This document shows positions 479 through 4,351 of a DNA stretch of 64,000 bases, in pieces. The translations under genes and the position numbers were made by a program. Origin of the DNA: Ramlibacter sp. Leaf400 (lineage in GTDB: Bacteria; Pseudomonadota; Gammaproteobacteria; Burkholderiales; Burkholderiaceae_C). How positions within the stretch are numbered: position 1 is the first letter of the stretch; each line of letters opens with the position of its first letter. The stretch is from contig NZ_LMQL01000009.1 of the NCBI RefSeq assembly GCF_001424545.1, positions 248,001-312,000 of the forward strand, read 5' to 3'. The notes below the pieces were generated by a model that was not told the DNA's origin, did no database searches, and saw nothing but the letters and a program-made list of their open reading frames with translations.

Positions 479-931
479 ATGCACACCGAGCAGGCCATCT
501 GGCTGGTCGGCTGGGCCTACGTGCTGGTCAACACCGGTCGCGTAGCCAGTTACGTGCCGCAGATCTTGGCCGTCTGGCGTTGCCGGGACGGTGCGCGGTC
601 CATCTCGCTGGTGACCTGGAGCTACTGGACCGTCGCCCACCTCACGGCCGTCCTGTACGCGGGCCTGGTGATCGCCGACGCAAAGCTGCTGGCAGTGTCC
701 ATCGGCAACCTCGCCAGTTGCGCGATCGTGGTCGCTCTCATCGTGGTGCGCCGCCGCGGAGACGATGTCCTGCAGCATCGCTGCAAGCGTTCCGGAGGCG
801 GCCAACCCGCCACACCGCACAGGTCCGGACGCGGACCTCAAATGTGGCGAGGGGCGGCACGGGCTGGCCAAGAGGCCGGACGGAGCCCGGGCTCGCATCC
901 GCCGGCACCGGCCAGGAGGTCCGCTCTTTGA
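479..931 (+). CDS. PQ-loop repeat (SemiSWEET-like) membrane protein
   Basis: The first ~95 residues form three hydrophobic segments with a proline-glutamine motif (SYVPQILAVW) followed by RSISLVTWSYW, the signature of a single PQ-loop/MtN3 repeat. Family members with three helices (SemiSWEETs) dimerise and let small sugars pass; the substrate here is unknown. AGGGG precedes the ATG at 479, and a longer in-frame ORF from 254 is rejected because it would cover the preceding gene. The last ~55 residues are arginine-, proline- and glycine-rich and unlike a normal SemiSWEET, which usually ends after the third helix at ~90-100 residues. This tail may be a read-through of a decayed 3' end. Confidence 0.65.
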   Translation: MHTEQAIWLVGWAYVLVNTGRVASYVPQILAVWRCRDGARSISLVTWSYWTVAHLTAVLYAGLVIADAKLLAVSIGNLASCAIVVALIVVRRRGDDVLQHRCKRSGGGQPATPHRSGRGPQMWRGAARAGQEAGRSPGSHPPAPARRSAL

Positions 932-965: not shown

Positions 966-1418
966 TTACTTCGGCAGCACGACGCTGTCGATCACGTGGA
1001 TCACGCCATTGTCGGCCACGATGTCGGTCTTGACGACGTTGGCACCGTCCACCTTCACGCCGCCGGACGTGCTCACCGTCAGCGGGCTGCCCTGCACGGT
1101 CTTGACCGGGCCGGCCTTGACGTCCTTGGCCAGCACCTTGCCGGGAACGACGTGGTAGGTCAGCACCTGCGTGAGTTTGTCCTTGTCCGCGAGCAGTGCG
1201 TCCAGTTGATCCTTGGGCACCTTGGCGAACGCGGCATCGGTCGGCGCGAAAACGGTGAACGGGCCCGGCCCCTTGAGCGTGTCGACCAGCCCCGCCTTCT
1301 GTAGCGCCGCGGCCAAGGTCTTGAATTCGCCGGCCGACGTGGCGGTGTCAACGATGTCCTTGGCCTGGACGCTTGCGGCTGCGAGGGCGATGGCGGTGAT
1401 GAGCAGGTATCTCTTCAT
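966..1418 (-). CDS. secreted fasciclin (FAS1) domain protein
   Basis: Residues 1-19 form a signal peptide ([19 protein letters not shown]) and residues ~22-148 one FAS1 domain. The H1 motif [14 protein letters not shown] (about 55-68), the central [10 protein letters not shown] (87-96) and the closing [13 protein letters not shown] are all present. FAS1 proteins act outside the cytoplasm, usually in adhesion or surface interaction. The length is normal for a one-domain bacterial member. AAGGA lies upstream of the start. The gene is divergent from a CarH/LitR-type regulator. A TTGACG-17-TATTCT promoter points at it from between two matching palindromes, so it is the likely direct target of that regulator. 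Confidence 0.93.
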
Positions 1419-1478: not shown

Positions 1479-1493
1479 TTTGTCTAGGACAAA
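1479..1493. promoter_or_regulatory. palindromic operator O1 (TTTGTC-N3-GACAAA)
   Basis: TTTGTCTAGGACAAA is a 6-bp perfect dyad with a 3-bp centre. It differs from the second copy at 1541-1555 only in the central base. It lies just downstream of the predicted start of the fasciclin transcript (about 1502, minus strand), where a bound repressor would block elongation or initiation. The assignment to the adjacent B12-binding regulator is inferred from position and duplication. Confidence 0.7.
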
Positions 1494-1508
1494 ACTCGGA
1501 TGAAGGCG

Positions 1509-1537
1509 AGAATAGGCGGAGTGCCTCAAGCCGTCAA
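1509..1537 (-). promoter_or_regulatory. sigma70-like promoter for the fasciclin gene
   Basis: On the minus strand, TTGACG (1537-1532) is followed after 17 bases by TATTCT (1514-1509), a near-consensus housekeeping promoter reading toward the fasciclin start at 1418. The expected transcript start is about 1502, giving a leader of roughly 84 bases. One palindrome sits directly upstream of the -35 and the other just past +1. Confidence 0.65.
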
Positions 1538-1540
1538 CGC

Positions 1541-1555
1541 TTTGTCTTGGACAAA
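1541..1555. promoter_or_regulatory. palindromic operator O2 (TTTGTC-N3-GACAAA)
   Basis: TTTGTCTTGGACAAA is the second copy of the dyad, 62 bp centre-to-centre from O1, about six helical turns. It ends one base before the ATG at 1557 and begins three bases upstream of the fasciclin -35 element. It could therefore serve both autoregulation and control of the divergent gene. Confidence 0.7.
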
Positions 1556-1556
1556 A

Positions 1557-2489
1557 ATGAAAGAATCTGTTCCGGATCTCACCATCGCGGCCGTTGAACG
1601 AGAGGTGGGGCTGTCCAAGGACGTGCTTCGCGTCTGGGAGCGCCGCTACGGTTTTCCCTCCCCATCGCGCGACACGCACGGCGAGCGGCGCTACCCCGGC
1701 GAGCAGGTGCAGCGGCTCCGCGTCATCAAGCGCCTTCTCGACCAGGGATTGCGTCCCGGCCGGCTGCTGGGGAGTTCTGCGGAAGAGCTGGCCGTCCTGG
1801 CAGCCGACATGCCGCGCGAAGCTCCGGTGACGAGCCTCGAGGACGGGGGTCCTGCCGAGGCGGCCGGGTTGCTGGACTGCGTCCGCTCCCATGACGCGGC
1901 GCGGCTCCACCACATGCTGCAGCAGCGACTGACGCAATTCGGCCTGGCTGCTTTTGTCCAGGACACGATCGCGCCCTTGGCGGTAGAGGTCGGAAACGAG
2001 TGGGCGCGCGGCGGGCTGCAGGTGTTCGATGAGCACCTGTTCACCGAGGTGGCCACCCGCCTGCTGCGCCACGCCATCCTGGCCGTCCCACCGGGACAAG
2101 GGCCGCTCGTGCTGCTCACGACCGTTCCCGAGGAGGCGCATGGCATGGGCTTGCTCATGGCCGAGGCCATGTTGTCCCTGCGCGGGGCGCGCTGCATCAA
2201 TCTGGGCACGCAGATGCCGCTGATGGACATCGCACGCGCGGCGGACGCCTACCGCGTCGAGGTGGTGGCGCTGTCCTTCTCGGCGGCCTTCACCCCGCGC
2301 CGCATCCCTGGGCTGTTGCAGCAGTTGCGAAACGAACTGGGCGCTCACGTCCGGCTGTGGGCGGCCGGGGCGGCCGTGCACCGAGTGGCGGCGATGGATG
2401 GCGTGGTCGTGCTGGGATCGATGGAGGACGCCGTGGCTGCGCTCGACGCCTGCGCGCCCGCCACTCAGCGGGGGCCCGTGCAGGCCTGA
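1557..2489 (+). CDS. MerR-family B12-binding regulator, CarH/LitR-type photoreceptor
   Basis: About 310 residues in the three-part CarH layout. A MerR helix-turn-helix spans ~8-72 (LTIAAVEREVGLSKDVLRVW), a helical cap ~100-175, and a Rossmann-like cobalamin domain ~182-300. The cap carries W149-x9-E159-H160 and the B12 domain E193-A-H195-G-M-G198. These match the W-x9-EH and E-x-H-x-x-G motifs of adenosylcobalamin light sensors, which repress in the dark and fall apart in light. An alternative ATG at 1500 would add 19 residues, with a GACAAA hexamer at -12 to -7. I prefer 1557 because MerR proteins normally begin close to the HTH. The gene is divergent from the fasciclin gene with two shared operators. 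Function is strong by motif; light response is inferred. Confidence 0.88.
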   Translation: MKESVPDLTIAAVEREVGLSKDVLRVWERRYGFPSPSRDTHGERRYPGEQVQRLRVIKRLLDQGLRPGRLLGSSAEELAVLAADMPREAPVTSLEDGGPAEAAGLLDCVRSHDAARLHHMLQQRLTQFGLAAFVQDTIAPLAVEVGNEWARGGLQVFDEHLFTEVATRLLRHAILAVPPGQGPLVLLTTVPEEAHGMGLLMAEAMLSLRGARCINLGTQMPLMDIARAADAYRVEVVALSFSAAFTPRRIPGLLQQLRNELGAHVRLWAAGAAVHRVAAMDGVVVLGSMEDAVAALDACAPATQRGPVQA

Positions 2490-2556: not shown

Positions 2557-3483
2557 TCAAGTGGCCGGCTGTGCTTCGCGCCAGACCCAATCGACCACCG
2601 CTTGGGCGGAACGGAATTCGTCGATCGAGCGCGCCGGGATGCGCGGGTGCGCCGCGCGCCACATCGTCGACAAGGTGGCGCCCGGGCCGATCTCCAGCAC
2701 GCAGCGGACATTGCGCTCCGCCACGCTCTCGAGGCAGCTGTCCCACAGCACGGGGCTCGCGATCTGCGTGCTGAGGCAGCGCGCGAGATCGGCGGGGGCG
2801 CGCGCGGCGGAGCCGGTGACGTTGCAGACGAGGGTGGACCGCGGGGCCTGCAGGCGCAGGCTCTCCAGCTGCGCAGCGAACTCCTGCACGGCCGCCTGCA
2901 TCCACGGCGTGTGCGAGGCGATGCGCACGCCGATGTCGGTGACGCGCCCGCTGCCCGCGGCCGGATCGTCGGCCGCCGCTTCCAACGCGGTGGCGAGCCC
3001 GCCCACGATGGCCCGGTCCGGTCCCAGCCGGATCGCGATCGCGAGACCGTGGCGCCCGCACCAGGCCTCGATGGCCGCCATCGGCAGGTCGCGGACGGCC
3101 AGCAGACCGGTCGCCAGGCCCTGGACGCTGCGGTCCATCGCCTGCGCGCGCAGGACGGCGAGCGACAAGGCCGTGCGCGGTTCGAACACGCCTGCCGCGG
3201 CAAAGGCCGCGAGCTCGCCCACGCTGTAGCCGGCCACCACGCTGGCCGGTGGCAGCAGCGGGGCGAGAACGCTCCAGGCCGCAAGCTCCACGCCCACGAG
3301 CAGCGGTTGCGCCACCGCGTTCGAGCGTGCCCACTGCGCATCGGCCAGGCGCTCGCGCCAGTCCGGACCGACGAGGGTTGCAAGCTCGTCGAGCAGCGGG
3401 CGTGCCGCCGGCGATTGCTCCAGCCAGGGCAGCATCTGCGCATGCTGCGTGCCCTGCCCCGGGAACAGCAGTGCCAGGCCCAC
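2557..3483 (-). CDS. mdcH: malonate decarboxylase, malonyl-CoA:ACP malonyltransferase subunit MdcH
   Basis: The acyltransferase fold starts at residue 1 with LALLFPGQGTQ, has the nucleophile elbow GYSVGE (S87), and the catalytic histidine region SHTPWM (H191). In malonate decarboxylase, MdcH loads malonate onto the acyl carrier subunit to prime the enzyme. The start chosen is GTG at 3483, five bases after the mdcB stop; the longer ORF would run into mdcB. At 308 residues it is normal for the family. It is the last gene of the mdc operon. Confidence 0.9.
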   Translation of the reverse strand: MGLALLFPGQGTQHAQMLPWLEQSPAARPLLDELATLVGPDWRERLADAQWARSNAVAQPLLVGVELAAWSVLAPLLPPASVVAGYSVGELAAFAAAGVFEPRTALSLAVLRAQAMDRSVQGLATGLLAVRDLPMAAIEAWCGRHGLAIAIRLGPDRAIVGGLATALEAAADDPAAGSGRVTDIGVRIASHTPWMQAAVQEFAAQLESLRLQAPRSTLVCNVTGSAARAPADLARCLSTQIASPVLWDSCLESVAERNVRCVLEIGPGATLSTMWRAAHPRIPARSIDEFRSAQAVVDWVWREAQPAT

Positions 3484-3487
3484 GGCG

Positions 3488-4351
3488 TCAGTCCGCCGCG
3501 GTGACCCGCTGCAGCCAGCAGGCCGCCGCCAGCACGTCGGCCGCACCGCCGGGCGACAGGTTGGCGGCCACGAAGGCGCGGTGGATCGCCAGCGCGTGCG
3601 CCTGGGCGTCGGGCCGGTCGCCGCCGCCGCGCTGCAGGAAGTCGCGCGCCGCCTTCTGCGCGAAGCGCAGGCCGGCCAGGCCGCCGCGATGCACGAGGTT
3701 GGTGTCGTCCAGCACGGCCATGGCGGCGAACAGCGCCTCGAGCCGGGCGCGATGCGGCGGCAGCCCGCGCGCGAGCGCGCCGCTCAGGCGCGGCCAGACC
3801 ACCTCGAACAGCAGCGGGAACCCTTCGGCCGCTTCGACGCCGACGCTGCGCAGGCCGTAGGCCCGGGCCGCCCGCGAGCCGTGCGAATCCCGGCTTCGTG
3901 ACGCTCGCTGCGCCAGCGCCGGGCCCCACAGCGCCAGCAGCGTGTGGCGCAGGCCGTCGGCGCCGACCTCCTCGCCCTGCGACACCCGATGCCCCGCGGC
4001 AGCGCACAGCAGCCCCAGCGTGAAGATGGCGCCGCGGTGGGTGTTGACGCCCCCTGTCGCGCGCAGCATCTGCCCCTCCGCGGCGATGCCCTGCGCCTCC
4101 AGCGCGGCGAACGGCGCGCCCGCCGCACCCAGCCGGGCCAGCGCAGGGAAGGCGTGGCGCAGCGCGAAGAGGCTGCGCATGAAGGTGCGCGCGTCCATGT
4201 CGCGATGGCTGCCGGCGTCCTGGAACGAGACCAGGCCGGGCTTGGGCGCGAGTTCCAGCTCGTCGTACAGGGCGACCACGGCCCGCTGGCCGAGCCGCGC
4301 GACGCGAGCCGGGTCGGCCTGCCAGGCCTTGGCGCGGAAGGCGAGCTTCAT
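3488..4351 (-). CDS. mdcB: triphosphoribosyl-dephospho-CoA synthase MdcB
   Basis: This is a CitG/MdcB-family protein of 287 residues. It makes 2'-(5''-triphosphoribosyl)-3'-dephospho-CoA, the precursor of the MdcC prosthetic group. Diagnostic segments are KPGLVS near the N-terminus, GSHRDM, NTHRGAIF and DTNLVHRGG. The ATG at 4351 overlaps the mdcG stop in an ATGA junction, indicating translational coupling. In many species mdcB follows mdcA; here it has moved next to mdcG and mdcH, grouping the cofactor-assembly genes together. Confidence 0.92.
   Translation of the reverse strand: MKLAFRAKAWQADPARVARLGQRAVVALYDELELAPKPGLVSFQDAGSHRDMDARTFMRSLFALRHAFPALARLGAAGAPFAALEAQGIAAEGQMLRATGGVNTHRGAIFTLGLLCAAAGHRVSQGEEVGADGLRHTLLALWGPALAQRASRSRDSHGSRAARAYGLRSVGVEAAEGFPLLFEVVWPRLSGALARGLPPHRARLEALFAAMAVLDDTNLVHRGGLAGLRFAQKAARDFLQRGGGDRPDAQAHALAIHRAFVAANLSPGGAADVLAAACWLQRVTAAD

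Follow-up and report, generated by a model that had tools for sequence, protein, structure and literature searches.

The closest described counterparts of the locus considered here are the CarH photoreceptors of Thermus thermophilus, Bacillus megaterium and the myxobacteria, for which the operators described consist of 11-bp units, nnnnTnnACAn, repeated in tandem, with the -35 element inside one of them (PMC9304148). In Thermus CarH, H132 turns into the upper cobalt ligand in light and the final light state requires oxygen; the H132A variant mostly remains tetrameric in light, whereas an earlier report has it disassemble (PMC10442372). Two further groups bear comparison. In the class II LitR systems, exemplified by PmlR2 of Pseudomonas mendocina and PplR of P. 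putida, one site overlaps the -35 element and the other lies between the transcript start and the start codon of the target, and the light-induced genes include folE and phrB (PMC9758184). CtMerR, SasPcob and AbDPcob lack the upper His, yet are reported to be light-responsive (PMC11796333).

The locus that we describe belongs to a bacterium whose genus we take to be Ramlibacter (Betaproteobacteria, Comamonadaceae). It lies in a window of 64,000 nucleotides (C9:248001-312000), the whole stretch analysed, from a genome of 4,585,682 bases in 15 contigs. A regulator gene (1557-2489, plus strand, 310 aa) and a fasciclin (FAS1) gene (966-1418, minus strand, 150 aa), its putative target, diverge from a spacer that holds two dyads and a minus-strand promoter; a second in-frame ATG for the regulator occurs at 1500, and the residue numbering used here fits the ATG at 1557. 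The initial annotation had described two 15-bp TTTGTC-N3-GACAAA sites differing at one central base, with starts 62 bp apart, and both are exact matches: O1 (TTTGTCTAGGACAAA, 1479-1493), spanning roughly +10 to +24 of the transcript predicted for fasciclin, and O2 (TTTGTCTTGGACAAA, 1541-1555) 3 bp from the -35 element and 1 bp before the regulator ATG. The promoter that it had placed between them, reading toward the fasciclin gene, was found again on the minus strand, with a -35 element (TTGACG, 1532-1537) and a -10 element (TATTCT, 1509-1514) that are 17 bp apart and together score 9 of 12. Allowing up to two mismatches, the dyad matches three times in the window (mean in shuffles 0.32, with 0 of 100 reaching three). 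In the 4.59-Mb genome, O1 and O2 are the only exact copies, and since the genome-wide count at up to two mismatches (28) is near that of a reversed control pattern (21), only this exact pair stands out. The best candidate with the right centre for another target in the same genome, C2:10415-10429, is a single site with two mismatches and was judged a chance match.

By Pfam, the regulator shows the class I CarH/LitR domain order, with a MerR helix-turn-helix (PF13411, MerR_1), a B12-binding four-helix bundle (PF02607, B12-binding_2) and a B12-binding Rossmann domain (PF02310, B12-binding). In PDB, the sequences that match it best are Thermus LitR/CarH (E 5e-27), with likeness over most of its length, and an AlphaFold model built on a 24-row alignment (pLDDT 89.0, pTM 0.70) returns Thermus CarH as its top Foldseek matches. 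Full-length superposition on Thermus CarH is poor (target TM 0.5-0.64, rmsd 11-21) because the domains are differently placed in the model; superposing just the B12 domain gives approximately 0.8 and 3 A. The two motifs on which a photoreceptor assignment had originally been based, W149-x9-E159-H160 and E193-x-H195-x-x-G198, bear closer inspection, as all six residues, among them H195 at the place of the lower-ligand His, are invariant in the 24 rows, and each of the 107 listed related loci retains both Wx9EH and ExHxxG/P. In domain order and in these two motifs, the protein thus resembles the described CarH proteins (PMC8156234, PMC9304148). The classic CarH motif continues x41 SxT/V x22-27 GG (PMC9304148), and here the spacing fits but the window protein reads S240-F-S242 and A270-G271; many alignment rows have GG. 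At the same time, it scores 115.2 bits against the NCBI CarH equivalog NF052513, for which the cut-off is 400, and is therefore not filed in that equivalog. Nor does it look like class II LitR, as PF02310 is present and reading the spacer reveals no TGTACA-N12-TGTACA site. The same genome carries a cobalamin adenosyltransferase gene and a cobalamin riboswitch.

Relatives of the regulator are widespread: of 399 genomes sampled from the order, 114 contain a match at E 1e-60 or better, although some of those counted are only some 40% identical. The 107 loci listed comprise the 30 best matches (L016-L045) and the best 80 of at least 556 relatives, minus three copies (L061, L070 and L073, which duplicate L018, L022 and L021, reducing 110 to 107), so that the set leans to close relatives. 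We scanned from -320 to +25 of each regulator start, with first-order Markov resampling, rather than exact dinucleotide shuffles, as the control. The consensus TTTGTCYWRGACAAA occurs with at most one mismatch at 125 sites in 79 of the 107 listed loci (resampled DNA, 0) and with at most three at 181 sites in 96 of them (resampled mean 1.75, largest 5), which answers the proposal of the initial annotation to look for the dyad upstream of homologues; eleven of the 107 lack any dyad, and a pair is absent from another 16. The remaining 80 have a pair, spaced by 61-64 bp (40 loci) or 72-76 bp (40 loci), or approximately six or seven helical turns. No spacing falls below 61 or at 65-71 bp, and the ten larger spacings (131-242 bp) are accounted for by five loci that have a further site far upstream. 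In L094, L103, L113, L129 and L139 an extra dyad stands beyond the pair, near -204 to -263 relative to the start of the regulator. Of 26 new loci held out, three hold exact copies of an earlier sequence, leaving 23 to be counted; ten of these have a pair, at 53 bp (1), 63-64 bp (5) or 74-75 bp (4), and thirteen have one site or none. The only 53-bp, five-turn pair among them (L177) faces a flavin oxidoreductase gene. The spacing classes track lineages on the tree, and the regularity therefore reflects few events rather than eighty; the step between classes is nonetheless one turn.

The promoter follows the same plan. A target-directed sigma70-like promoter scoring at least 9 of 12 lies between the sites in 72 of the 80 pair loci, as compared with 11% of single-base shuffles, and a regulator-directed one at the same threshold in only 2 of 80, below the shuffles (12.5%). 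The core of the initial annotation, a CarH/LitR-type regulator with a twin operator bracketing the promoter of its target, accordingly extends well beyond this window, with the pair travelling with the family in Betaproteobacteria at whole-turn spacings. In 60 genomes of the genus, exact TTGTCCWGGACAA is found at 14 places. Nine of these belong to regulators of the same clade (in G011, G024, G038, G047, G056 and G057) and one to a paralogue that faces a glutathione peroxidase gene (G052); four are single sites (in G022, G019, G008 and G031) with no such regulator or target within their 3-kb loci. Five loci of the same genus (L040-L044) carry more distant B12-type MerR paralogues on a separate branch, with no such dyad upstream. 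Neither the dyad, searched in several spellings and as the consensus, nor a report of an operator for a betaproteobacterial CarH photoreceptor was found in open-licence PMC texts.

One claim of the initial annotation, that the operator is unlike known CarH sites, finds no support in that form: the TnnACA half-site and the 11-bp step into the -35 element resemble those of published CarH operators, as excerpted from PMC9304148, and it is the inverted arrangement that differs. Measured from the ACA of the inner O2 half-site, a TnnAC follows at 11 bp, on the -35 element, in all 10 fasciclin loci and in 16 of the 30 remaining loci of the six-turn class. In the seven-turn class, +11 carries an extra half-site (31 of 40) and the -35 element is found at +22 (37 of 40). 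Because TTGACA itself reads TnnACA, it is the distance and the extra repeat that are informative. In the window both 11-bp units, on the minus strand, are imperfect CarH repeats, the one from the inner half of O2 reading AnnACA (1542-1552) and the adjoining one, which includes the -35 element, TnnACG (1531-1541); the conserved unit is the inverted dyad. With CarH-like half-sites and an 11-bp period, one imperfect repeat lying over the -35 element much as in the published operators (PMC9304148), set out as inverted dyads around a promoter, the operator is, as read here, a hybrid, and a variant of the CarH operator. Known CarH operators are, in the excerpts considered, tandem repeats only, and do not bracket the promoter with inverted dyads as here. 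In bracketing its promoter with two sites, the locus is like class II LitR, which differs in its TGTACA-N12-TGTACA site, in having no B12-binding Rossmann domain and in being relieved by a LOV protein, according to the excerpted account (PMC9758184). Further departures from CarH as excerpted are the absence of a His after the Trp of Wx9EH, targets that are non-carotenoid, and a probable operator within the regulator gene itself.

This last site, O3 (TTTGTCCAGGACACG, 1953-1967), is the third dyad of the window at up to two mismatches and does not appear in the initial annotation. It came to light through a control: coding DNA of the regulators served as the first one for the dyad scan, and in 110 windows it yielded 59 dyads at up to three mismatches, against 187 in upstream DNA. 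Tracing this excess led to O3, and resampled upstream DNA then became the control. O3 overlies the codons of F133-V134-Q135-D136-T137. Codon tests drew on 55 rows of at least 51% identity or on 51 rows matching the peptide pattern. In the 55 loci, excess synonymous conservation peaks at the FVQD window, which with 0.353 ranks first among 208 windows (mean 0.076, sd 0.078); across the 51 loci, the O3 peptide uses TTT 47 times (31% elsewhere in the genes) and GTC 44 times (46% elsewhere). The operator is spelled in 38 of 43 FV[QL]D rows, where codon usage predicts 4.33, and the rows with Leu for Gln (L020, L022, L106 and L135) use CTG, which preserves the A/T centre. A best internal dyad with at most two mismatches is present in 47 of the 107 listed genes, compared with 81 of 1070 synonymous shuffles; 46 of the 47 are at the O3 place and one (L029) is elsewhere. 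We believe that O3 is probably an intragenic operator kept by codon choice.

The alternative is that O3 is no operator, and that the codon bias of F133-D136 arises from translation, mRNA structure or shared descent. We regard this as somewhat doubtful but a serious possibility. Residues 165-169 are almost as constrained synonymously (excess 0.309), and as single columns F133, V134 and D136 rank only 7th, 8th and 11th of 168. One arm of O3 in the window carries two mismatches, and the strict pattern is limited to 45 of the 107 listed loci. O3 lies 388-444 bp from O2 in 44 loci, with 13 of them at 400 and seven at 404, and shows no clear helical phase to it. Against the alternative stand the top rank of the O3 window, the number of rows that spell the operator, the CTG codons of the Leu rows and the recurrence of O3 in 4 of 6 held-out loci with at least 54% identity, but in 0 of the other 17. 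The most biased codon of the regulator gene is in fact S20 (TCC in 37 of 50), and over S20-K21-D22, at 1613-1623 of the window, lies a dyad-like sequence, TGTCCAAGGAC, with a spacing one base longer, which we note without claiming it.

The lac operon offers a familiar parallel, in which an oligomeric repressor binds a main site and also an auxiliary one approximately 400 bp inside a coding region. The auxiliary site proposed here differs in lying in the regulator's own gene, and looping is likewise a proposal.

The divergent gene encodes a fasciclin (PF02469, E 2.9e-41), and its product has a single FAS1 domain behind an N-terminus that looks by eye like a signal peptide. Among the matches listed, an orthologue of 75-100% identity is present in 9 of 60 genomes of the genus, each time adjoining the regulator, and other fasciclins do not exceed 57% identity. 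A Burkholderiaceae locus (L067) supplies a tenth fasciclin-regulator pair; in one further genome of the genus (G007), the sites beside a relative of the regulator are degenerate and the neighbourhood contains no fasciclin. The ten fasciclin rows need two changes on a quick tree with SH-aLRT support only, which does not resolve a common branch for them. Two loci (L017 and L019) have a tandem fasciclin pair divergent from the regulator, the nearer one only 41-47% like that of the window. Elsewhere the same slot holds other genes: 20 neighbour proteins scanned from other loci comprise nine glutathione peroxidases, six flavin amine oxidoreductases, two FolE2 and three without a family. Grouping by similarity to the scanned representatives within 1.2 kb of the regulator places 82 of the 107 listed loci in the glutathione peroxidase, FolE2 or flavin oxidoreductase groups, ten with fasciclin and 15 in none.

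The initial annotation had supposed that a light-controlled, adhesin-type fasciclin would link light to attachment or aggregation. FAS1 proteins do act in adhesion in other organisms, and the domain and signal-peptide-like start of this one are in keeping with such a role; the proposed link of light to attachment is weakly supported. The antioxidant-type genes that occupy the slot in relatives favour photo-oxidative defence over adhesion. Fasciclins also stand in light- and stress-response tables elsewhere: that of Rhodobacter sphaeroides (RSP_1409) has raised expression, together with folE2, in a photo-oxidative stress table (PMC7074977), and read counts of two Mycobacterium kansasii fasciclin genes go from 6 to 36 and from 21 to 64 in a light-transcriptome table (PMC9861118). 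The window resembles both organisms in having a fasciclin in what is predicted to be such a setting, and differs from the latter in that the excerpted M. kansasii text has no CarH or MerR term (PMC9861118). Taken together, these targets and tables lead us to read the fasciclin most likely as part of a light-stress or photo-oxidative defence, and we consider an adhesin altering attachment or aggregation unlikely. In R. tataouinensis the cell cycle changes with light, and blue light inhibits growth via an unknown receptor (PMC6848086). The terms fasciclin and cobalamin are absent from the main text of the Ramlibacter papers searched, and no report of a fasciclin as the target of a CarH or other B12-dependent light regulator was found in open-licence PMC texts.

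Light sensing by the regulator through AdoCbl is likely, with a release step unlike that of Thermus. None of the 107 listed loci has a His after the Trp of Wx9EH, the equivalent of Thermus H132; the residue is E in 45, A in 22 (A150 in the window protein is of this kind), M in 21 and others in 19. Of the SignatureFinder motifs GxxW, EH, GxxH and GxxxP (PMC11796333), the regulator has the first two and the last, with E at the GxxH place, where only 14 of the 107 listed loci have G. The window protein is thus like CtMerR and the photocobilins in lacking the upper His, its own B12 sensing being predicted, and unlike them in that theirs have Arg, Gln or Tyr at the upper-His place and GxxH, going by the excerpted account, where it has E (PMC11796333). 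Since the motifs are kept and light-responsive precedents without the His exist in CtMerR, SasPcob and AbDPcob, we infer that the protein probably senses light and that its release step must differ from that of Thermus CarH. B12 binding, DNA binding and a light response are all predicted. The missing ligand could also mean that the regulator binds B12 here yet responds chiefly to oxygen, redox state or the supply of B12, light having little effect in vivo. The largely non-dissociating Thermus H132A, the oxygen needed for the final light state (PMC10442372) and the antioxidant-type targets of relatives would all agree with this. We nonetheless think it improbable, given the light-responsive proteins that also lack the His and the retention of the residues (Trp, Glu and His) by which the adenosyl group and the cobalt are held.

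Overall, we consider it likely that the regulator is a CarH/LitR-type, AdoCbl-dependent repressor that closes the fasciclin promoter in the dark and frees it in light. This reading draws on CarH likeness in sequence and predicted fold, the conserved motifs, the dyads with their spacing and 11-bp step, the promoter, the adenosyltransferase and riboswitch, and the co-occurrence of fasciclin and regulator in 9 of 60 genomes; against it count the missing upper His (present in 0 of 107), the E in GxxH, the equivalog score and the dyadless and pairless loci. That the dyads belong to another transcription factor, the B12 regulator acting elsewhere, is very improbable: the dyads follow the regulator family in 96 of 107 listed loci despite changing target genes, and their half-site and 11-bp period are CarH-like.

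For the repressor, then, the general course of events can be proposed. In the dark, an AdoCbl-bound oligomer, either a tetramer or two dimers, would hold O1 and O2, six turns apart on the same face of the DNA, and would cover the -35 element beside O2, closing the fasciclin promoter. Because O2 adjoins the regulator ATG, the regulator probably limits its own synthesis as well, and O3, approximately 400 bp into the gene, may serve as an auxiliary operator through looping or as a roadblock in this autoregulation. Light would break the Co-C bond and loosen the oligomer, and fasciclin would be made, probably for photo-oxidative defence. A broader model, which we offer tentatively and would place somewhat short of probable, is that betaproteobacterial CarH-type proteins use a phased, modular operator, with inverted dyads on one helix face at five, six or seven turns and 11-bp-repeat steps, together with an auxiliary operator in their own B12-domain codons; this would form a lac-type, light-opened clamp or loop, which in this genome would have passed from antioxidant genes to a secreted fasciclin and would let go in light without a bis-His switch.

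Regardless of the specific mechanism, three things appear new within the CarH/LitR kind: the operator follows a distinctive plan, one operator probably lies within the gene, and the putative target is a fasciclin, for which no report was found in the texts searched. The plan amounts to an operator code that can be put to the test in B12-type regulators, a widespread group, and would place a bacterial fasciclin under a defined, if predicted, signal. Without the Thermus upper His, the family offers a test of whether light release depends on a bis-His state, and it would be unusual, if true, for a regulator gene to carry an auxiliary operator of its own within conserved codons. Two neighbours complete the locus. 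On the 3' side of the regulator, 2557-3546 (minus strand) encodes an acyltransferase resembling the epsilon subunit of malonate decarboxylase (280.8 bits against a cut-off of 297.9), and convergent with the fasciclin gene, 479-931 (plus strand) encodes a small protein with weak likeness to SemiSWEET transporters (E 0.0015; 18.6 bits, cut-off 80).
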